NCBI GenBank assembly: GCA_019915015.1
Contig: JAHBBC010000010.1
Coordinates: forward strand, 1,488,001 to 1,552,000
From: Auriscalpium vulgare
Lineage: Eukaryota; Basidiomycota; Agaricomycetes; Russulales; Auriscalpiaceae
Direction: 5' to 3'
DNA length: 64,000 bases
Below the pieces are notes generated by a model. That model saw nothing but the letters and a program-made list of their open reading frames with translations, had not been told where the DNA came from and searched no databases. Of the stretch, positions 1 to 12,987 are shown piece by piece. A program made the position numbers and the translations under genes. Position 1 is the stretch's first letter. Each line of letters begins with the position of its first letter.

Positions 1-3000
1 TTCAGTGGGCACGCTACGGACTCGCCACATAATTCCTGGGAACCACATACGACAAATTCCCCTCACTCAGAACCCCAGTCTCGTGCTACGTTTATAGGCA
101 AGAAGAAGTACAAGCCAGTCGCACTCAAAGTGCGCCCAGTTCTCGGAACGCTCCCTGACGGATTCAGGATCGAGCGCAATATTCTTGGAGACCCGCTAGA
201 ATCAATGCCCCCTCTTGCCACACATCCCCCCGCATTCACGCCGACTGGTCGATACACACAGGAACGCCACGACGCCATGGATAACTTGCCCAATTTCGAA
301 TTCCTCACCCCCACCGAACGCGACCTCCTTCACGATGTCATTTCGAAACAAAACGAAGCGTTTGCTTGGGACGACACCGAACGCGGCAGCTTCAAAGAAG
401 AATACTTCCCTCCCATCAAGATTCCAGTCGTCTCCCACGTCCCGTGGGTAGAGCGGAATATCCCTATTCCCCCTGGAATCCACAATGAGGTCTGCGGAAT
501 TATTAGGAAGAAGATTGCCGCCGGTGTCTATGAACCCTCCAACTCCTCATACCGTTTGAAATGGTTTTGCGTTGCGAAGAAGGACGGGAAGCTCAGGATC
601 GTCCACTCCCTCGAACCGCTCAACGCCGTCACGGTCGCACACTCAGGAGTCCCGCCCATTCAAGAACACCTCGCTGAACAATTTGGCGGACGTGCTTGCG
701 GCGGTATTCTGGACCTTTACGTCGGTTATGACGAGCGCGTTATTGACGAGCGATCCCGCGACTTCACCACCTTCCAAACCCCATACGGCGCGCACCGACT
801 CGTCACCCTACCAATGGGTTGGACGAATTCCGTTCCTATCTTTCACGACGACGTCACATTCATTCTTCAAGACGAGATCCCGGACTACACCATCCCCTTC
901 ATCGACGACGTGCCTATAAAAGGCCCAGCTTCCGACTATAGAAATCCCGACGGCACCTACGAAATGATCCCAGAGAATTCCGACATACGGCGCTTCGTCT
1001 GGGAACATTTCCAGAACGTCAACCGTATCCTGCAGCGCATGCGTTATTCTGGCGGTACATTCTCCGGCACCAAGTCCATCCTCATCTCGCGCGAATTCAC
1101 CGTCCTCCGCCACCTTTGCACACCCGAAGGTCGCAAAGCAGATCCTACCACCATCTCAGCAATCACCAACTGGGGTCCGTGTAAAGATCTGTCGGACATC
1201 CGCGCATTTCTAGGGACTGTCGGAGTCTGCCGCATATTCATCAAGGATTTCGCCAAGCACGCATGGCCTCTCACAAAGCTCACTCGCAAAAGCGTCGAAT
1301 TCGAGTATGGCCCAGCCCAACTTGAGGCTCAAGAATACCTCAAGGACACTCTAGTGCATTCCGGAGCACTGAAGGCCATCGACTACCAATCCCCTGCTCC
1401 AGTTATCCTCGCCGTCGACACTTCCTATATTGCTGTTGGGTATATCCTCGCCCAACAGGATCTTGACAACGCCAAACGCCACCACTATTCACGTTTCGGA
1501 TCAATTTCGCTCAACGACAGGGAACGCCGGTTCTCCCAACCCAAGCTAGAAATCTACGGCTTATTCCGAGCCCTCCGTGCGCTCAGAGTATACCTTATTG
1601 GACTTCGAAATCTCATCGTCGAGGTCGACGCATCTTCCATCAGCGGTATGCTGAAGAATCCGGACCTAGTACCCACAGCAAGCATCAATCGCTGGATTAT
1701 AGCGATTCTAGCCTTCAAATTCCTGCTGCGCCACGTCCCCGGAATTTTTCACGGCCCCGACGGACTTTCTAGACGTGTCCGACAACCCGGCGATCCTGAA
1801 GAACCACTCGACGGCGATTTCGACGACTGGCTCGACAACTTATACGGATTTCTAGTTGCCACTGTTACCCCGAATGATCCAGAACCAGTCCCGCACTCTC
1901 CCATTTCCTCCCCCACAAGCCTCGCAGTTTTCGCCTTGACCGAGGACGGTCAAGATTTCAATAAGGAGGAGGAGCCAGGGCTCGAGTACAGCGAAGTACC
2001 ACGCACGGAAGGAGCGCGAAAAGCAGATCGCCGCCTCCTTGAAGTGCAGCAGTGGTTAGACAACCCCACTCGCCCCAGCAATATTTCCGACACCGCCTTT
2101 GGCACCTTCGTCCGCTACGCCACACGCTTCTTTCTCGACGGAAATCGACTCTGGAGAAGATCTGGAGACGGTGCACACAAACTCATTCCACATCCCAATC
2201 GCCGCATTGCTATCCTCACCGACTGTCATGACAAAGTCGGCCACCGTGGAGTATTCGCTACCCGCTCTCTCATCGGGGAACGCTTCTGGTGGCCCTCCTA
2301 TGAAGCCGACGCAATGTGGTATGTCCGGACATGCATCGTCTGCCAACATCGCCAAAAGCTACAGATCTTAATGCCGCCCACCGTCGCAATGCCCGCCTCA
2401 TTATTCGCCAAAGTCTACGTCGACACTATGTTTATGCCCGCGTCAAATGGCTACCGCTACATCGTCCAAGGCCGTTGCTCTCTTACGGCCTGGCCCGAAT
2501 TTCGACTACTCAAGAAGGAGAACTCTGCACAAATCGCCGATTTTGTGTATGAGAATATCCTCAGCCGATGGAACTCACTATGCGAAATAGTCACGGACAA
2601 CGGAGGACCTTTCGTCAAAGCGCTGGTCCAGCTAGAGAAGAAATATCACATCCGTCACATTCGAATCAGCGGCTACAACTCACGCGCCAACGGCATCGTG
2701 GAACGCTCGCATTACGACGTACGGCAAGCACTCGTCAAAGCAGCGGACGGAGACCAGACTCAATGGGAACGCCATGCTTATTCCGTATTCTGGTCCGACC
2801 GCATCACTACGCGCAAGCGTATGGGATGCTCGCCTTACTTTGCAGTCACCGGATGCCACCCGCTCATTCCACTCGATATTTCGGAAGCCACGTATCTCCA
2901 GCCGCCGCCCACCTCCATCCTCTCCATGACGGACTTAATTGTCCGACGCGCCGTCGCGCTCCAGAAAAGATTCGAGCAGCTCTCCCGCCTACGATCCAAC

Positions 3001-3423
3001 GTCTACGCCACTCGCCTCGCCAACGCACAACGCTTTGAAATAGAACACGCGCATACAATCAAGAATTACGACTTCAAACGAGGAATCCTAGTGCTCATGC
3101 GGCATACTGCGATAGAGAAATCCCTCAACCGCAAGATGCGTCCCCGCTACCTCGGACCACTTGTAGTGATTTCCCGCAACCGCGGTAGAGCCTACATCCT
3201 CGCAGAACTCGACGGTTCCGTGCTAGACCGACCCATCGCCGCATTCCGAGTCATTCCGTATTTCGCACGCTGTGAACCTATTCCCATCGACTTATCCCAA
3301 GTCGACATCGACACACACCGCCTCCGCGAGCTAGAAACCTCGGAGACCGCTGGAAATGACGATGAAGAAGAGCCTACCGCATTAGACACCCAAGACGACG
3401 ACAACCAAGTAGATGACGATTGA
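1..3423 (+). CDS. pol: Ty3/gypsy Pol polyprotein (reverse transcriptase, RNase H, integrase), 5'-partial
   Basis: The frame is open from base 1, so any start inside the window (such as the GTG at 130) is not the real one. The order RT, RNase H, integrase identifies Ty3/gypsy. The RT region lies at about 480-1130, with the catalytic box FIDD at 898-909 where YIDD or YVDD is usual; the D-D pair is kept. RNase H spans about 1370-1790 and ends in the linker GPDGLSRR. The integrase has an HHCC zinc finger (HDKVGHRG and CIVCQ, about 2226-2350) and a DDE core: YVDTM near 2415, TDNGG at 2593-2607 and the Glu of GIVERSH at 2701. A chromodomain-like fold was not evident; the C-terminus is acidic. There is no internal stop, so the element may be or recently have been autonomous. 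Confidence 0.93.
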   Translation, partial: FSGHATDSPHNSWEPHTTNSPHSEPQSRATFIGKKKYKPVALKVRPVLGTLPDGFRIERNILGDPLESMPPLATHPPAFTPTGRYTQERHDAMDNLPNFEFLTPTERDLLHDVISKQNEAFAWDDTERGSFKEEYFPPIKIPVVSHVPWVERNIPIPPGIHNEVCGIIRKKIAAGVYEPSNSSYRLKWFCVAKKDGKLRIVHSLEPLNAVTVAHSGVPPIQEHLAEQFGGRACGGILDLYVGYDERVIDERSRDFTTFQTPYGAHRLVTLPMGWTNSVPIFHDDVTFILQDEIPDYTIPFIDDVPIKGPASDYRNPDGTYEMIPENSDIRRFVWEHFQNVNRILQRMRYSGGTFSGTKSILISREFTVLRHLCTPEGRKADPTTISAITNWGPCKDLSDIRAFLGTVGVCRIFIKDFAKHAWPLTKLTRKSVEFEYGPAQLEAQEYLKDTLVHSGALKAIDYQSPAPVILAVDTSYIAVGYILAQQDLDNAKRHHYSRFGSISLNDRERRFSQPKLEIYGLFRALRALRVYLIGLRNLIVEVDASSISGMLKNPDLVPTASINRWIIAILAFKFLLRHVPGIFHGPDGLSRRVRQPGDPEEPLDGDFDDWLDNLYGFLVATVTPNDPEPVPHSPISSPTSLAVFALTEDGQDFNKEEEPGLEYSEVPRTEGARKADRRLLEVQQWLDNPTRPSNISDTAFGTFVRYATRFFLDGNRLWRRSGDGAHKLIPHPNRRIAILTDCHDKVGHRGVFATRSLIGERFWWPSYEADAMWYVRTCIVCQHRQKLQILMPPTVAMPASLFAKVYVDTMFMPASNGYRYIVQGRCSLTAWPEFRLLKKENSAQIADFVYENILSRWNSLCEIVTDNGGPFVKALVQLEKKYHIRHIRISGYNSRANGIVERSHYDVRQALVKAADGDQTQWERHAYSVFWSDRITTRKRMGCSPYFAVTGCHPLIPLDISEATYLQPPPTSILSMTDLIVRRAVALQKRFEQLSRLRSNVYATRLANAQRFEIEHAHTIKNYDFKRGILVLMRHTAIEKSLNRKMRPRYLGPLVVISRNRGRAYILAELDGSVLDRPIAAFRVIPYFARCEPIPIDLSQVDIDTHRLRELETSETAGNDDEEEPTALDTQDDDNQVDDD
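1937..1972 (+). promoter_or_regulatory. Internal hairpin-plus-polypurine cassette inside pol
   Basis: Thirty-six bases in the RNase H-integrase linker repeat the sequence just upstream of this element's 3' LTR (11,504-11,539) with two mismatches. The cassette is a short inverted repeat, TGACCG-AGGA-CGGTCA, followed by the purine run AAGGAGGAGG. The location resembles the central polypurine tract of some retroviruses, which primes a second plus strand. Function here is inference. Confidence 0.45.
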
Positions 3424-3765
3424 TTACGAATTACGGTCACCATCCAGAACTAGTACCACTTCCTATCCTCCCCAGCTGATACTGAATATCCCCCTTACGA
3501 TAGCAAGTCGCTCGCGTACATCGCTGAAGCGCAGGACTACTCAAGATAAAAGTCCTAAGTCAATGAAGGAATACTGAGACTTAAACAAAAGAATTCGAAT
3601 TTCGACTTAGGAGTTTAGACCTCAAATTCCTCAACCGTCGTTCCGAAATAATGACACATAACGCGCAACTTAGCTCAAGCGGTTATACGACCTCCACGTG
3701 TATTTCGAGGCATTCAAGAAATTGCTATTGTACAAGACGTCAACGTTGCCACCCGATCACTTCCC
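3424..3765. other. Convergent spacer between pol and the antisense gene
   Basis: No gene is seen. An imperfect inverted repeat, TCCTAAGTC (3553-3561) and GACTTAGGA (3604-3612), lies midway and could form a hairpin in transcripts of either strand. Pol and the antisense gene converge here. Confidence 0.4.
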
Positions 3766-5351
3766 CTACTCCCCCTGCCCATCGTACCGATTCCCATCCT
3801 CGTCGAAACCCTCTGGCACTATCGACCGCCAATCTCCCGCCTGGTAGTACCACTCCGGATAGTTCAAGAGGCTCAGCTGCGACAGCCAAGCCGCCTCTAT
3901 CGTCAGCGAGCTCGCGTACGCCCGTGCCATCGCGGTGTGGATCTCCGAGCGCTGTTCACGGACGGATTGCCTGAGAGCGGGATCAATGTCCGCGTCCTCC
4001 GGAACTCCGTTGATCGTCTCGTGCTGCTCGTGGAGCATTTGCGGCGCGCCGTCAATACGCCAAGCATATGGAGACGGACCAGGAGGCATCCTGCCCTTCG
4101 GAACACCGTTCTTGATGAACCACCGCATCACCTTGGCGTGCGCATGGATCTTACGCGCATGATCTACCGTCAAAAGAGAAGTCCAGATCAATACCATCGA
4201 CAAAAGAGGAAGACGAGCACATACCGTCTGGCACCACCTGGTTATCGTTGGCGTCCGGCACCTGCGGCGCAACATTGGCCACAGGCGCGGCCGCAACTGC
4301 CACCGGCTCCCGCGGAATCAAGTCCTCGCTCTTCAAGCTAGCGAGAGCCGAAGAGACCTCGCGCCCCCGAGTAGAGGGCCCCGCGATGTCCGCCATGATT
4401 TCGATATCGTCCGAACTGGCGGCGCGGTGTTCTAGAACCAAGACCGGAGGAGTTGAGCGCGGCTCGGACAAGAAGAGCGGCGTATGCCCACCCTGGATTG
4501 TCGCCTGCGTCTGCGAGAGCGGCCCCGAGTCCTCCACGATTTCGACCATCTGAATATCGGGTTCCACGGTCAACGCTACCTCGGGAACAGGAGCCTGGCG
4601 CGACGGCCCACTTGCCGAGCGCTCCGGCTCAGCGCGACCTAAGAAGAAATCAACGTCAATACCGAAATACACATTCCCTCACGACTACGCCACGTACCTT
4701 TCCTTTTGCCCGCCCCAGGAGGCTTCGAACGAATCACCACGGACATCATCGCCTTCACCTTTTTAGCAGGTGGCGGAGCGATGACTGCCTCCTCCGCGGC
4801 CCGACGCGCTTCGATCTCAGGCAGGAACTCCGCGATGACGGTCGATTTCTTGTCGAAATCGGCACCACGACCCAAATTATCTGTCCCAACTCGACGCATT
4901 CAATATCGCAATCCACGCAGATCAAGAAGAAGGACTTACTCGTCGTGTTCCGGCCCTGCCACTTGCACGGCTGCTTGTCCTTCCTGCACCGCGGACAGTC
5001 CACCGAAATACGCGGCTTGTCAAGGGTCCGCGACGGCGAACAAAGTTCCGCCCGCTCGTCCGAGAGGCGGCACGCGTCGCAAACCTATACCCAGCTCGAA
5101 ATCAGCGCTCAAGGCTTCCACTCCCCATCGAAATAACGACTCACCGCCGGATACCAATTCCCCTTCGTATCGTACCAAGCCGAGAGCCCGTTGTTCAAAT
5201 CCTCGAGGATATCGTCCGCCTGCTTGCCTTGGATGAACCGCCACTCCGCTTTGGTCAGCTTCCGCAGCTTCTCAACGAGCGTCGGAGGCTTGGCAGCCGC
5301 CTTCGCCTTGCCCTTGCCTTTCGAAATAGCGAGGGGCAGCGGAGACGATTC

Positions 5352-5355
5352 ACGA
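5352..5355 (+). repeat. Target-site duplication, left copy (ACGA)
   Basis: ACGA directly precedes the left LTR and matches the four bases directly after the right LTR. Confidence 0.8.
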
Positions 5356-6077
5356 TGATACGCCTGGTTCTGCGGTGTGCAGAGATCTCACTTCAATTTT
5401 CGAACTTTCGTCAAGTCGAGAGTTTCGCTTCGGAGTCACCTGACTTTGGAACTTGGCCAGCAGTTTCCGAGGTTTCAACCCAGTCACTTCCGAACTTTCC
5501 GAAGTCACGTGACTTCGGATTCCGAACTCGCACCGGTCTCGGCCCGCTAGCACAGCCTCCACGGATCTTTCCGAAGCGCCCGCACGTGATTCGGTCCAGA
5601 CTTTACAAAGCCCATCATCATCAGACACGCCCCAAACGTGATCCAGAGTCGAAACACTCACAGATTGTTGGGCTATGTCGCATCTAGGCCATATCCACTC
5701 CAGAACATTGCCCCCTCGTTCCCAGTATTGTCCCCTCCATTCCGACCCTACCTCGAGCCCTCCAGATGTGGTTCGCTGCGTTTCTAGCGGCGTCGAACCG
5801 CTATGCAACGCAATACTTCGGAACTTCGGACGATAGCCGCAGCGACTTCGGAACGCGTTCCGAAGTTAGGCGCACATTCCCACTGTGGAGTCCCGTATGT
5901 TTCATTGTCTTAGGTTTCATGACTACTCTTCTCAGGCTTCCTAGCAATGGCGTTCGACTTACCGTTTGCTTGCGACTTACTCATTTCTTGTGATCTTGAC
6001 CCACTTGCTTCATGTTTCGTTCTACTTATGCTCTTGTTTGTTCGCACGGTTGTATATTACTTCGGACTCACTCGTAG

Positions 6078-6085
6078 TATATATA
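6078..6085 (+). promoter_or_regulatory. TATA-like box in the LTR
   Basis: The run TATATATA lies about 650 bp from the LTR end and about 870 bp upstream of the Gag-like start codon. The identical copy in the right LTR is at 9424-9431. Promoter role is inferred from position. Confidence 0.5.
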
Positions 6086-6380
6086 GGACTTGTCAGTACA
6101 ATATCATATCATATCATATCATATGCCCCCTTCTTCCCCCTCATAGTGAGACTCACGCTAGAGACTCTCCTCGACCTCTCGCATTGTCAAAGCGTTTCTG
6201 ACTTTGCACCTTTCGACTTCGACTTCGACTTCGCCTTCGCCGCACGCCGCACGTATAGTATTTGACTTCGACTTCGGATCTCGACTCCGACTTCGACTTC
6301 GCCTTTGACACTCGTATCGTATTCGCCTTTCGTACCCTCCTTTGTCATTCAACTTCGACTTCGACTCCATCCTCGACCCA

Positions 6381-6468
6381 ATCACTTCGGCACTTCGGCT
6401 CCATCACTTCGGCACTTCGGCTCCATCACTTCGGCACTTCGACTCCATCACCTCGGCACTTCGGAACC
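6381..6468 (+). repeat. Four 22-bp tandem units in the 5' LTR
   Basis: Units start at 6381, 6403, 6425 and 6447 and follow the consensus ATCACTTCGGCACTTCGGCTCC with increasing divergence in the last two. The same array is present in the 3' LTR at 9727-9814. The CTTCGG core is also scattered through the interior of the element. Confidence 0.85.
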
Positions 6469-6740
6469 ACGGCATTCAACTTCGACTTTGCCTACGTTGC
6501 ACGACCACTCGACACCCCGCAGATCGTAACATCCCCACACTTCCTCGTCCTTCCTAGTTTGGATCACTCCCGAACTCACTGCTATCACGCTACGACCACC
6601 CCATTCCCACTTCGGAGACGCTCCCGGAGACTTCGGGATCACTGACGACTCGCCCCTCACACAACGGTACCGTGCACTGTGCTCTAGGGATAGGTATACA
6701 AGACATTACCGCCCTACTACCGGCTGGTACCCATCATTAT

Positions 6741-6758
6741 TGGAGCCCACCGCGAGGG
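6741..6758 (+). promoter_or_regulatory. Putative primer-binding site
   Basis: TGGAGCCCACCGCGAGG starts four bases after the 5' LTR, the usual place for complementarity to a tRNA 3' end (TGG pairs with CCA). Which tRNA it would match was not determined. Confidence 0.5.
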
Positions 6759-6954
6759 GACCAAGTCAGTATTCCTCCGAAGCCCTCGGACGTGTCCACT
6801 CCCTTTGATATAGGTGTCGCATCTCCAATCAACTTCGGATTTTGAGCGCTCGATCGCAACAACCATCCGAACCTAGGCCCGATACTTCGCCTCCGCACGC
6901 ATCATCCCTTCCACATCCCATTCACTTCGCCTCCTTCGCATCCCTTGTCTATTG

Positions 6955-9033
6955 ATGGCCTCGTATATGCCCCCTCGCCGCGCACGAACTGCACCGATGT
7001 TCGATCCCAAACAGCCCCGTAGGTTCTTCTCCGACCTCGAGAAGCTCACCATGTCTGCGAACATCACCAGTGATCGCGCCAAGAAAGATTGGGCACAGAA
7101 GTACGTCGAACTTGACGAAGCTGATTTGTTTGACGCGATGGAAGTGTTCTACGGTCCTGGTACCTACGACGACTTCAAGGAAGCAGTCGCGAACCTCTAC
7201 CCAGGAGCCGAAGAAGACATCCGAAACTTCCGAACCATCGATCCAATTATGTTCGACATTGCCCCAGTCGGAGGACCTCCAACTTCGCTCGTTTCCGAAC
7301 AAATCGAGGCTATCGACGCAGAGTTGGCCTGGCTGCGCGAGCAACAGGCTCTCGAACAAGAGTATGATGGCATTGCAGCAATGCACGAGCCATCCGAAGT
7401 ATTCGACACCGTTCCGAACCTCTGCTATGTCACCCCCGTTCCTGTCCCGCTCACATCTTCCCATCGTCGCGAACCAGAAAACTGCAAGATGACTTGGGTC
7501 ACTGTTTGCTTCGACGCTTCGGATCCAGCTTTCGCAAGCGAGACACAAGACCCCGCTGCCACGCCCTCGCTTTTGGAGCACTTCGCAAGCACCCCGGAGC
7601 TTCGCTTCGCACCCATTGCACTGCGTGCAACCATTGAACAAGTCCCGAACCAAGACGCAGAGATACGCAGCGACGCGAACAACACCATCCCACTCACTCC
7701 ACACCTCGGAACATTTCCGAGCTACCGAGGAGACGACGCACTACTTGTACAGGACATCCAAACTACCATCCCCAACTTCGACACACTTCGCCCCATTCCC
7801 AGTGACAGCTACAGCCGCATTCCAATCGAACACTCGCAGTTCCACGTCTCGACGTTCATCATGCCCCGCATCATCGACAAGCACCTCTCCAACCTCTTCC
7901 GAACTTACCAACGCATGTTCGACACTGGAGGCATGTTCTCTGGTACGAAGTCGATCCTCGTCTCACACGAACTCATCATCCTTCGTCACATCCTCTCGAC
8001 TGGCGCACACGACTTGCCTCTGTGGAACTTCGGATCACTTCGCAACTTCGACTTTGTCTCTCCAGCAATTGGCCACACTTCGACTTCACGTGGCATTGCG
8101 GGCAGCAATACCATCGTTCATAGCAACCCAGCGAAGCCGATGAAAGACTGCTACAATTGTTTCGGACCCAGTTCGCTTGGTTTTCGAGCACGCAGCTCGA
8201 CTCTGCCAACCTTCAAGTTAGGAAACTTCGGATTCTTTCGTGGACTTCGGACGCCTCACATCCTTAGGAATCACATCACAGACATCGACCTTTCCTCCGA
8301 CCACAGCATCTCGCACACCACAGCCGTCGCATCGACAGAGGAGTTACAACTTCGTCGCATCAACTTCGGAGTATTCCTAGGCTTCACGTCCCTCTTCCTC
8401 GCGTTCGATCGTCGATTCCCACGGTACTTCGGAAGTACCGCGCCTCCGCTCGACCTCTCAAACCAACATCCTGTCTCAACGCATTCCTCCGACACTTTGC
8501 GTTTTGCACATGGACGCATCACCATGACTCGCATCTTCCTCTTCCACGACGACGCACCCATCATCCTTTGCGACTTCGCCAAACTACTTCGGATCTTTGC
8601 CACATCACTTCGGAAACTCCATATGGCGCACCTCGGAATCCTCGCGCACGTCGCATGTTGGGCTCTGACCGTGGACGGTCAGTATCAAAGTATGGAGGAG
8701 GTGATACGCCTGGTTCTGCGGTGTGCAGAGATCTCACTTCAATTTTCGAACTTTCGTCAAGTCGAGAGTTTCGCTTCGGAGTCACCTGACTTTGGAACTT
8801 GGCCAGCAGTTTCCGAGGTTTCAACCCAGTCACTTCCGAACTTTCCGAAGTCACGTGACTTCGGATTCCGAACTCGCACCGGTCTCGGCCCGCTAGCACA
8901 GCCTCCACGGATCTTTCCGAAGCGCCCGCACGTGATTCGGTCCAGACTTTACAAAGCCCATCATCATCAGACACGCCCCAAACGTGATCCAGAGTCGAAA
9001 CACTCACAGATTGTTGGGCTATGTCGCATCTAG
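6955..9033 (+). CDS. Gag-like protein of the inner element with RT relic
   Basis: The 692-codon frame starts at ATG 6955 (MASYMPPRRARTAP). Its first ~120 residues resemble the Gag N-terminus of basidiomycete gypsy elements (MSANITSD followed by a YDDF...LYPGAE pattern). A short Glu-rich helix follows. Around 7900-7990 the frame contains FSGTKSILVSHEL, which aligns with FSGTKSILISREF of the RT region in the pol gene at 1060-1098. It therefore looks like a gag-pol internal deletion whose junctions keep an open frame. The rest is Ser/Thr/Pro-rich without recognised domains. The frame runs through the polypurine tract and 110 codons into the 3' LTR. No CCHC knuckle and no protease motif were seen. 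Confidence 0.6.
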   Translation: MASYMPPRRARTAPMFDPKQPRRFFSDLEKLTMSANITSDRAKKDWAQKYVELDEADLFDAMEVFYGPGTYDDFKEAVANLYPGAEEDIRNFRTIDPIMFDIAPVGGPPTSLVSEQIEAIDAELAWLREQQALEQEYDGIAAMHEPSEVFDTVPNLCYVTPVPVPLTSSHRREPENCKMTWVTVCFDASDPAFASETQDPAATPSLLEHFASTPELRFAPIALRATIEQVPNQDAEIRSDANNTIPLTPHLGTFPSYRGDDALLVQDIQTTIPNFDTLRPIPSDSYSRIPIEHSQFHVSTFIMPRIIDKHLSNLFRTYQRMFDTGGMFSGTKSILVSHELIILRHILSTGAHDLPLWNFGSLRNFDFVSPAIGHTSTSRGIAGSNTIVHSNPAKPMKDCYNCFGPSSLGFRARSSTLPTFKLGNFGFFRGLRTPHILRNHITDIDLSSDHSISHTTAVASTEELQLRRINFGVFLGFTSLFLAFDRRFPRYFGSTAPPLDLSNQHPVSTHSSDTLRFAHGRITMTRIFLFHDDAPIILCDFAKLLRIFATSLRKLHMAHLGILAHVACWALTVDGQYQSMEEVIRLVLRCAEISLQFSNFRQVESFASESPDFGTWPAVSEVSTQSLPNFPKSRDFGFRTRTGLGPLAQPPRIFPKRPHVIRSRLYKAHHHQTRPKRDPESKHSQIVGLCRI
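8660..8701 (+). promoter_or_regulatory. Hairpin and polypurine tract of the inner element
   Basis: TGACCG-TGGA-CGGTCA (inverted repeat) is followed by GGAGGAGG at 8694-8701, immediately before the right LTR. This is the expected plus-strand priming site and parallels the outer element's site at 11,504-11,539. Confidence 0.7.
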
Positions 9034-10082
9034 GCCATATCCACTCCAGAACATTGCCCCCTCGTTCCCAGTATTGTCCCCTCCATTCCGACCCTACCTC
9101 GAGCCCTCCAGATGTGGTTCGCTGCGTTTCTAGCGGCGTCGAACCGCTATGCAACGCAATACTTCGGAACTTCGGACGATAGCCGCAGCGACTTCGGAAC
9201 GCGTTCCGAAGTTAGGCGCACATTCCCACTGTGGAGTCCCGTATGTTTCATTGTCTTAGGTTTCATGACTACTCTTCTCAGGCTTCCTAGCAATGGCGTT
9301 CGACTTACCGTTTGCTTGCGACTTACTCATTTCTTGTGATCTTGACCCACTTGCTTCATGTTTCGTTCTACTTATGCTCTTGTTTGTTCGCACGGTTGTA
9401 TATTACTTCGGACTCACTCGTAGTATATATAGGACTTGTCAGTACAATATCATATCATATCATATCATATGCCCCCTTCTTCCCCCTCATAGTGAGACTC
9501 ACGCTAGAGACTCTCCTCGACCTCTCGCATTGTCAAAGCGTTTCTGACTTTGCACCTTTCGACTTCGACTTCGACTTCGCCTTCGCCGCACGCCGCACGT
9601 ATAGTATTTGACTTCGACTTCGGATCTCGACTCCGACTTCGACTTCGCCTTTGACACTCGTATCGTATTCGCCTTTCGTACCCTCCTTTGTCATTCAACT
9701 TCGACTTCGACTCCATCCTCGACCCAATCACTTCGGCACTTCGGCTCCATCACTTCGGCACTTCGGCTCCATCACTTCGGCACTTCGACTCCATCACCTC
9801 GGCACTTCGGAACCACGGCATTCAACTTCGACTTTGCCTACGTTGCACGACCACTCGACACCCCGCAGATCGTAACATCCCCACACTTCCTCGTCCTTCC
9901 TAGTTTGGATCACTCCCGAACTCACTGCTATCACGCTACGACCACCCCATTCCCACTTCGGAGACGCTCCCGGAGACTTCGGGATCACTGACGACTCGCC
10001 CCTCACACAACGGTACCGTGCACTGTGCTCTAGGGATAGGTATACAAGACATTACCGCCCTACTACCGGCTGGTACCCATCA
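8702..10082 (+). repeat. 3' LTR of the inner element
   Basis: A copy of 5356-6736 at a constant offset of 3346 bp with no difference noticed. It encodes the last ~110 residues of the Gag-like frame (stop at 9031-9033), then carries the same TATA run and 22-bp array. Confidence 0.95.
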
Positions 10083-10086
10083 ACGA
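10083..10086 (+). repeat. Target-site duplication, right copy (ACGA)
   Basis: ACGA follows the right LTR directly and equals 5352-5355. On the minus strand it falls in an Arg codon of the interrupted gene, after which the frame continues at 5351. Confidence 0.8.
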
Positions 10087-10735
10087 CTCTCAGGACGGAG
10101 CCTAGCCTTACCCTTGCCCTTCGAAATCGGACGAGGCGGCGGCGACAACTCGACGACCTCCGAGAGCTCGTCCTCACCCTCGTTACCCTCGTCTCCGACC
10201 TCCGACACAATCTCCGGCAGAGTCTCGACCGGCGGCAGCAAGAAAGCGTCCTCCCCAGGCGCGACCACGCTAGGTCCCGCCACCGGAGACGCAGCCGCGT
10301 CGACAGGATCCCCCGCAGCAGCAAAGAACGCGTCTACCGAGGCATCGAAATTGTCATACAACAGCGTTAGGAACGCCAGTCAAGCAGCACGACAACGAAG
10401 ACATACCTGGTCCATTTCGGGCACGACAGTAATATATCCGAAGGACTTGGCCTTCCAAGTCTCTTCTCCGTGTTGCCAGGCGATCTCCTTGAACTCCTGG
10501 ACGAACTCTTGAGTTCGTGTAGCGCCGTCCGGGAACTTATGCGTCTGGGCCTGTCGATCAAGAAGCATCAATCATCAAAGAAGACAAAATGATCAAAAGA
10601 AGCACTTACCAACGCTTGGGCGACACGCAGGCACCAGTTCAACTTGTCAGCTGAGCTGGCCGCAGGATCGAACTCGTTGAGACGCTTGCGGATGACGGCC
10701 AAGCAGGGTGCAATAGGAACAGGAAGGTCGGACAT

Positions 10736-11503
10736 GTGCAGTGAGCGCCAGGGAACAAGGACAACAAGAGGGAATGCGGACCAAAATATCGCATTCCGCC
10801 TCCTTTTATGCCTTTCCGCTCGGCCGCACGTCCCTTTCTATTTCGACTACTCCCGCGCACACACCACAGGCCACGACTTCGTCGCAATTCGTTTCAACTC
10901 GAAATCCCACGCAACATCCCCGCTGTCCACGCAGCTTCCCCGCCCTCTTCGACTTCAGGAAACCATCGTCGCCTTTTCGATCCTATTTCCAACGGCCCCA
11001 GACCACCGCCTCATGTCAAACTCAATCATGACGTCATCATTTCGTTTCAAGCATTTCGAGTCCCCCACGCAACACTTGCACTCCCACGACATTTGCCGAC
11101 CTAGGCTTACCACATTCCGACACAACTTCCTTCGCCTCCGGCAAACCCCGCTATTGGCTCCCACACTTTCGAAAAGTCTTAGAGACTTGCGACAAAAATA
11201 TCCGACGCTTCAACAATTCCTCCGCCGCAACACATCCTTCGAAAAGGAAAAAGAAGCCCTCGACGCAAGTATCTTATGGACCTGACACGCGACCACATCG
11301 CACATCTCGCATCAACGCCCAGAACACGACGCCAACACGCGCCAATCCCTTTTCGTAATACGCCACGCACATCTTCCTTCATTGCCGAAGCTCGGCATGG
11401 TCGGAGGCGGTTCAGTATGCCATCATGTACAACCTGGCGCCGACGACTTTCGTATTCCCTCCCGCCCGCGTATTCCTTTCGAGGCGTCGCTCCCTCTACA
11501 TGC
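10736..11503. other. Spacer between the antisense gene start and the polypurine tract
   Basis: About 770 bp without a convincing gene. Open frames on both strands are low-complexity and lack recognisable domains. By position it must hold the promoter of the antisense gene; no clear TATA box was seen. Confidence 0.4.
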
Positions 11504-11539
11504 TGACCGAGGACGGTCAGTATTTCAATAAGGAGGAGG
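11504..11539 (+). promoter_or_regulatory. Hairpin and polypurine tract of the outer element
   Basis: TGACCG-AGGA-CGGTCA is followed by AATAAGGAGGAGG, which abuts the LTR start at 11,540. It is the natural priming site for plus-strand synthesis and the reference copy for the cassette found inside pol. Confidence 0.7.
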
Positions 11540-12987
11540 TGATACGCCTGCCCAGCCGTCTAGCAGAGAAACACCCGAATTTTGGCATTTTCGGCATCTT
11601 CCGAAATCACGTGACCTCGGCCTGCCGGCCTCGGTCCGCACCATCAGGTTTCACTACCACCCCGCAGCGTCTATCGAAAGCGCCCCAAACGCACTCGAAA
11701 TAGCCTACACGCCCCACCAAGCGCCCCGAGCCACACGCCACAATCCTACGGCCCCGCACAACAAGTCACCCAGCGGCTATCTGACTCGGAGCCACACGCC
11801 ACAATCCTTCCCCGCCGTGATGCGCCGCTGTCAATCATACTTCCCTTCTGCGTTCCCCGATTTCTCGATATTCCCCACATCTTGATCCACGATACGGTCC
11901 CGCCTACGTTAATCCACAGCCGTCCGAGATAGGCAGGAGCGCTACACAACGAGCCAAGACCGCCCGTCGTACGTCCCTCCCTTCAATTTACACTCGAAAT
12001 ACATCGGATACCCCGCTCGACTTTACGATACACCACCAGCGCCTTACGATATAAGCGCTAGCGCGCTAATCGCACTTCGCCCCCTAGCGGCGATCGTAAG
12101 TCGGAACTAAACCTAAATCCGTCCGTAATTCAACGATCCTCTCTTGCCACATCCCTCGTATACTCACTCCCCCGCGTCCACTTCGTACACCCCGTGATAT
12201 CTGACCCACGTCTACCGCGTTTTAGATCGTATTTGTCTTCACTATGTCACGTCCGTACGATACGGATTTCTGACTCGCTTGTCGTACAAATAGTTCTGAG
12301 TCGCTAGACAGACAGAATAACAAGTTACTATTCCCCCTCGTACTCAGGATCTCGAAAGAGCGCCTGAAGTGGTCTGACTTCACCACAACCCGTCGCTCTA
12401 GCTCTTAGACGCACGAAACTTCGACACCAATACCACGCCGCAATATCAATACGAATACCAATACCGCGACCCTCGACAAATCCCCTCTTGCCCTTCGAAA
12501 TCTCCCTACGCCTCGCTACTCTCCCCCTCGACACCCCGCACCTTCAACGCAGAGATCAGGCCTATATACGCCCCTCTGTTCCTTCGTCACCGCCTCATAC
12601 TTCGTCCCTCTCGTCCTCGATATATTCCCCCGACCATTGCCACCGCTGCGTAATTCCCCTTCGACTCTCGAAATAGTCCTCGTGTCCCCTCCGACATTCC
12701 TAGCTTCCGTGACACATTCTTGGGAGCTCGCCCGTCGCGTCTCCAGCACTGTATCATTTCGGTGATCCGTGCCGTGTCTAGCTCTCGCACTATCGTCCTC
12801 TCCCCCAGCCTCTCGCGCCCTCCGATCCAAGTCCTAGTCACTGTGTCCCACTCGTACACTGAGCAGGATTTGCCGTGCGTAGTCTCGGGACCCTGACTGC
12901 GCTCCCTCAACTCGATACATTCACTACTGCGCTCTGAGGATTGGACATCAATATATATCCGCCTCACTACCAGTTGGACGCCCATCA
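11540..12987 (+). repeat. 3' LTR of the outer gypsy element
   Basis: The LTR starts TGATACGCCTG right after the polypurine tract and ends CGCCCATCA, like the inner element's LTR. Between the ends the two are clearly related but diverged: both have a CCGAA(A/G)TCACGTGAC block near the start, a GCGCCCCAAACG block and a CTACC(A/G)G(T/C)TGG block at the end. A TATATA run lies at about 12,951. The partner 5' LTR is outside the window, so identity could not be tested. Confidence 0.75.

Follow-up and report, generated by a model that had tools for sequence, protein, structure and literature searches.

A window of 64,000 nucleotides from the basidiomycete Auriscalpium vulgare (contig JAHBBC010000010.1, positions 1,488,001 to 1,552,000) begins within a Ty3/gypsy retrotransposon bounded by long terminal repeats (LTRs), and between the pol gene and the 3' LTR of this element lies an intron-bearing gene on the opposite strand. 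The antisense gene occupies window positions 3766-10735 on the minus strand, with its ATG at 10735 and its stop codon at 3766. It has seven exons, whose lengths give phases 0,0,0,1,1,1, and complete copies of its family, here called family A, encode a protein of 629 amino acids. A preliminary description had proposed a seven-exon minus-strand gene with consistent phases between the pol stop at 3423 and the polypurine tract, and the splice sites together with seven aligned family A copies confirm it. The gene, its start and its stop stand as first drawn, but positions 5356-10082 are a separate LTR element nested in exon 3, and the window's copy is broken because of this interruption. The features are as follows.

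1 to 3423, plus strand: 3' part of gypsy pol (RNase H, integrase H2C2), with Pfam matches; stop at 3423
3496 to 3602, strand unassigned: non-coding block of about 106 bp separating the stop codons of pol and the antisense gene
3766 to 4163, minus strand: exon 7, C-terminal helical-looking region and stop
4225 to 4638, minus strand: exon 6, with the motif SQTQ..T..G....LFL common to families A, B and C and two A. vulgare proteins
4698 to 4880, minus strand: exon 5, basic stretch (AKKVKA)
4940 to 5084, minus strand: exon 4, six-cysteine module CX2CX9CX14CX2CX6C
5145 to 5355, minus strand: exon 3, second part, past the nested insertion
5356 to 10082, plus strand: nested LTR element, with LTRs at 5356-6736 and 8702-10082 and target-site duplication ACGA
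10083 to 10355, minus strand: exon 3, first part
10407 to 10550, minus strand: exon 2
10610 to 10735, minus strand: exon 1, with the ATG
10804 to 10809, minus strand: ATAAAA, a TATA-like box lying 74 nt before the ATG
11519 to 11539, plus strand: polypurine tract of the gypsy element
11540 to 12987, plus strand: 3' LTR of the gypsy element (TGAT...ATCA), first bases TGATACG

The carrier shows two LTRs, a polypurine tract and a 4-bp target-site duplication, the hallmarks of a Ty3/gypsy LTR retrotransposon. What remains of its 5' LTR lies upstream of the window, with 900 of 903 bases identical. In the window, Pfam places RNase H before the zinc-binding H2C2 domain of integrase; reverse transcriptase and the integrase core have no Pfam match at E 1 or better and are recognised by eye only, and the protease scores only below the Pfam cut-off. 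A full-length copy on contig C14 lacks the nested insert and reads LTR, gag, protease, pol, antisense gene, LTR, its two LTRs being identical at 1438 of 1447 bases. No LTR boundary separates pol from the gene in this copy, and the notion that the gene might occur only once in the genome, raised in the preliminary description, is refuted by its many copies.

The C14 copy also preserves the empty insertion site of the nested element. This 4.7-kb insertion has LTRs identical at 1381/1381 bases and is flanked on both sides by the 4-bp duplication ACGA. With its LTRs and target duplication, the segment 5356-10082 was rejected as a giant intron. It contains a gag-like frame at 6877-9033 and only remnants of pol, and is probably non-autonomous.

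The antisense gene is a regular companion of pol in three related element families. The best 150 of 227 candidate pol loci were scored and sorted into families by identity and neighbours, giving 10 loci of family A, 16 of B, 27 of C, 27 of D and 10 of E; two rows (C53, C90) were excluded, and the other 58 (the F/G group) were left untallied. Searches with the antisense proteins of A, B and C scored the best 70 of 77, 79 of 98 and 75 of 105 candidates, respectively. By hand tally of the listed loci, 51 of 53 in A, B and C have the antisense gene adjoining pol (A 9/10, B 16/16, C 26/27), in keeping with the earlier suggestion of an accessory gene in a fungal gypsy lineage. At least four tallied loci (C10:382414, C10:1621146, C88:13579 and C17:948515) have additional DNA between pol and the gene or inside the gene. 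Exons matching the window gene occur at 10 further loci of the examined DNA.

Comparison of copies supports the exon plan and reveals how far the protein has diverged. Among seven other family A copies, all six introns have GT...AG borders in 7/7; two of these copies keep the complete frame of 629 amino acids, two have one premature stop and three show length changes, so intact copies of the gene do exist. The proteins of family B (L029, 546 amino acids) and family C (L014, 583 amino acids) are likewise encoded by seven exons with phases identical to those of A, judged from one spliced copy per family. Pairwise identity among the three proteins is only 24-25% (E 1e-14 to 1e-24), and their pol sequences are 74-76% identical over 372 columns. 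Common to all three are the exon-1 region, a six-cysteine exon ending in CXW, a basic stretch and the SQTQ..T..G....LFL motif; the cysteine module first noticed in the window, possibly a metal-binding one, is thereby borne out as a conserved pattern. A TATA-like box precedes the ATG in each family, at -74 in A, -94 in B and -70 in C. One family A copy (L027, at C2:387k) has exon 7 DNA 76% identical to that of the other A copies, with 95-99% identity in the remaining exons; it is a mosaic, probably produced by recombination between families. Another sequence, P0001, likewise has a mosaic look.

Selection on the protein is clearest in family B. The pair L029/L031 differs by 22 silent and 10 replacement changes, with dN/dS about 0.13 (Fisher 5e-8), and the LTRs of L029 itself are identical at 1584/1584 bases. 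From these alignments, purifying selection is clear in this one young pair and moderate elsewhere; dN/dS is 0.55-0.58 when family A exon 7 is set against its diverged counterpart in the C2:387k copy. A sense-strand env-like gene was considered and rejected, without recourse to a transmembrane test, since constraint, cysteines and phases all track the minus strand.

The antisense RNA itself could instead be the active product, pairing with gag-pol RNA or feeding RNA silencing, with the reading frame of little importance. Antisense transcripts of other elements can have such effects (PMC7264820), and in family A the protein is weakly constrained. The strongest DNA conservation near the gene also falls in non-coding sequence: the block of about 106 bp between the two stop codons is 81-86% identical among A, B and C, where the final 300 nt of pol reach 69-72%. 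This block was not found in the D-G loci examined or at the solitary homologue described below, has no match within the nested LTR and no Rfam match, and its RNA folding z is -0.11. Against an RNA product, families whose cysteine-exon DNA is only 43-57% identical nevertheless retain the phases, the six cysteines and the motifs, and silent changes outnumber replacements in L029/L031. An RNA-only role is improbable, and a protein-coding gene is the preferred reading.

Across families A, B, C, E, F and G the predicted introns of the gene measure 49-71 bases. Of the 28 from these six families, 19 have a branch-point-like CTRAY within their final 45 bases, versus 4.1% of exon stretches of equal length. 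The motif is missing from the other nine, four of which are among family A's six. Splicing of the antisense transcript is predicted from these signals. Reverse transcription copies the sense RNA, in which an antisense intron shows no splice sites. The introns would persist because the element replicates through sense RNA, where the antisense splice signals are reversed and go unrecognised.

Protein searches, each scoring about 8,000 candidates, point to related products within the same species; a wider spread is possible. The family A protein has one match, an A. vulgare protein 70% identical over 97%, and the family B protein one match, also from A. vulgare, 58% identical over 97%. Comparable spliced products have therefore been drawn by another annotation group. 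An Rfam search with the gene and window returned no match.

The distribution of the gene beyond A, B and C is uneven. The expectation that independent copies would carry it between pol and the 3' LTR holds for those three families and fails for family D, where searches with the A, B and C proteins matched at 0/27 loci, although a strongly diverged gene would escape them. At two D loci inspected directly, LTR-start sequence appears some 250-265 bases past the pol stop, with no gene between. In an unrooted pol tree, D falls between A-C and E-G, so either D has lost the gene or the tree is rooted on D.

Families E, F and G, with one locus read for each, have an antisense multi-exon gene at the same position, and each gene contains a six-cysteine exon. 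The E and F genes have five exons with phases 0,0,0,1 and the G gene three exons with phases 0,0; the E gene adjoins pol at 9 of 10 listed loci. By their sequences and structure, these genes are probable homologues of the A-C gene. An origin from a second, unrelated capture is possible but rather doubtful. It would fit the weak profile comparison, in which hhalign aligns E+F with A-C at E 2.4e-4 (probability 44%) and E+F+G with A-C at E 1.2e-3 (probability 19%), in the cysteine module only, and a protein search with the E-G alignment, which found no match among about 8,000 candidates. Common descent is favoured by the shared place and strand, the phases 0,0,0,1, the phase-0 intron before the cysteine exon and a six-cysteine spacing similar to that of A-C. 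A second long antisense frame lies upstream of the cysteine gene in E (L035 4452-3094), F (L036 4408-3194) and G (L037 3781-2798). The E and F frames are 31% identical (E 4e-43), that of G is not significantly similar, and none of the three has a Pfam match.

The gene could be a passenger, a fragment of host DNA or of another transposon trapped once and merely copied along. Five of the seven aligned A copies are broken, several copies have nested insertions in the gene, and family D manages without it, all as a passenger would allow. Against this, A, B and C all carry the gene on one exon plan, one B pair shows purifying selection, and E, F and G have a probable homologue. The gene has no terminal repeats of its own that were noticed, in a search that was not exhaustive. 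A passenger is very improbable, and an accessory gene of the element remains the better account.

A solitary homologue raises the question of origin. On contig C1 (L043, 4515-2693, minus strand) lies a gene with the same seven exons and phases, whose exons 1-6 are open and match family B at 4.8e-31, C at 2e-27 and A at 6.5e-22, with 26-30% identity to A-C. Its exon 7 is frameshifted, and the C-terminal similarity goes on in another frame. In 7 kb at this locus, no LTR, family A gag or pol, X protein or direct repeat was detected. Its neighbours are a KH-repeat gene and an RRM/CID gene, the latter's two matches lying close to the cut-off; such architectures are known from vigilin-like and U2SURP-like genes. 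The homologue is single copy at 88% identity or above, with all other matches at 39% or below, and among the long branches of an unrooted tree its own is the shortest. Beside it, a 26-bp perfect inverted repeat (L043 2033-2058 and 2632-2657) encloses about 0.6 kb in the manner of a miniature inverted-repeat transposable element.

This C1 gene may be a source gene, a domesticated copy or a relic. Capture of a host gene, as the preliminary description supposed, is possible because the homologue stands between host genes. Under that account, it descends from a host gene ancestral to the element's gene, which would have been captured whole and in antisense, keeping its introns for want of sense-strand splicing and then becoming a fast-evolving accessory protein in the clade; this is a tentative proposal and on balance unlikely. 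There is about an even chance that the C1 gene is instead a relic or domesticated copy from a vanished element family. Its frameshifted last exon suits such an origin, as do the otherwise element-borne distribution of the gene family in this genome and the unrooted tree. The single copy, the surroundings free of detected gag, pol or LTR, the six open exons at 26-30% identity and the short branch speak against that origin.

For the element's own gene, place, seven-exon plan, spread over families and constraint are documented at the level of sequence, and a mechanism can be proposed. The gene would be read in integrated DNA from its own promoter near the 3' LTR, and its transcript spliced by the host. 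With less confidence, the six-cysteine protein, which also has basic and acidic stretches, may act in the nucleus, in trans, on DNA or RNA of the element, presumably binding through its cysteine module. Nuclear location and binding are suggested by the basic stretches, the module and an analogy to Grande gene23 as described in PMC7264820. The protein may regulate LTR transcription, or assist nuclear entry or chromatin targeting, and would then be comparable in role to retroviral accessory proteins. That this is an element-borne, protein-coding, spliced antisense gene is very likely. The fuller account, an accessory gene of a fungal gypsy clade with its own promoter, host splicing and a nuclear regulator or helper as product, is somewhat favoured, and a nuclear nucleic-acid-binding regulator in particular is plausible but falls a little short of probable.

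Several observations weigh against this account. The frame is complete in only two of the seven aligned A copies. The 21 family A pairs give dN/dS of 0.28-0.59, which indicates weak constraint, and the two remaining B comparisons, both involving the decayed copy L030, yield 0.46 and 0.65; moderate values of this kind are expected if copies decay after insertion. No TATA-like box was found in E, F or G by the patterns used for A-C. The antisense proteins have no Pfam or PDB relative, and AlphaFold2 models of the two A. vulgare proteins have a mean pLDDT of 34.9 and are unusable. Finally, family D thrives without the gene, which is therefore not indispensable unless it acts in trans. Its absence from D points to a useful helper that the element can do without, or to one that A-C provide in trans.

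Antisense genes in LTR elements have precedents. They are known from plants and from Boty, with function and origin called unknown (PMC7264820), and Grande gene23 is described as nuclear and transcribed from its own promoter (PMC7264820). The precedent, cited in the preliminary description, of extra antisense frames between pol and the 3' LTR in plant Ty3/gypsy elements is corroborated by Grande gene23, RIRE2 and Retand (PMC7264820, PMC11963269). These plant aORF-3R genes, which include Retand ORF4/TRP28, share with the present gene its strand and place and are kept in most copies and in several families (PMC7264820, PMC11963269). The present gene falls under the same description, as an antisense coding gene between pol and the 3' LTR in most copies (51/53 listed loci of A, B and C). 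It differs in its seven exons and fungal host; the word "intron" is absent from the text of the Retand paper. None of four antisense proteins matches TRP28 (PF04195) at E 10, which sets them apart from the Retand TRP28 group. Among fungi, brtn of the Boty-like elements of Botrytis cinerea, compared by description, is likewise an antisense extra gene in a gypsy element (PMC7264820, PMC8365987, PMC4227169). Boty is reported to have 5-bp duplications and a chromodomain (PMC4227169), whereas the present element has 4-bp duplications and no chromodomain match.

More distant parallels concern the type of product. HBZ and other antisense retroviral genes are also antisense genes of retroelements, HBZ being of the nuclear regulator type (PMC11963269). 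The antisense promoter of human T-cell leukaemia virus lies in the 3' LTR (PMC7264820), unlike the present TATA-like box, which lies in the internal region, and no sequence relation was found. Homing endonuclease genes with spliceosomal introns, reported antisense within group I introns (PMC9548176), offer another intron-bearing antisense gene on a mobile element, though the element and protein are different.

Zn(II)2Cys6 regulators of fungi have six cysteines in two CX2C-led halves, as here, with a canonical spacing of CX2CX6CX5-12CX2CX6-8C. The present spacing, counted by eye, is CX2CX8-10CX9/14CX2CX6C, and the antisense proteins have no Pfam match to this class at E 10, so they are not assigned to it. 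No report of an intron-rich antisense gene in fungal gypsy elements was found in the literature searched, with limited access to subscription papers. Within that literature, the multi-intron gene with a plan conserved across families of one fungal clade, the six-cysteine protein without known relatives and the solitary homologue at a host locus appear to be new.

The same exon plan in at least three families of one genome makes selection, splicing and origin directly testable, and family D, which lacks the gene, and the solitary homologue provide natural comparisons. A retroelement can evidently carry a multi-intron gene over the long term with its introns retained. If the proposed mechanism is right, the antisense position would confine expression of the product to integrated DNA and thus give the element an inherent switch between genome copy and messenger.

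Two minor observations concern the carrier. A family B element of complete length (C10:1471278-1484024; L029, L009) lies in reverse orientation inside the focal 5' LTR. In addition, a palindrome-plus-purine box (TGACCGNGGACGGTCA ... GGAGGAGG) at window positions 11500-11540, before the 3' LTR, is repeated in pol between RNase H and integrase at 1933-1975. The pair is also present in B (L029), D1 (L038/L033) and D2 (L039/L034); no such box was noticed in the inspected pieces of C, E, F and G. The spacer of the box is family-specific, and the two sites agree or nearly agree in A, B, D1 and D2, a pattern resembling a central polypurine tract under concerted evolution.
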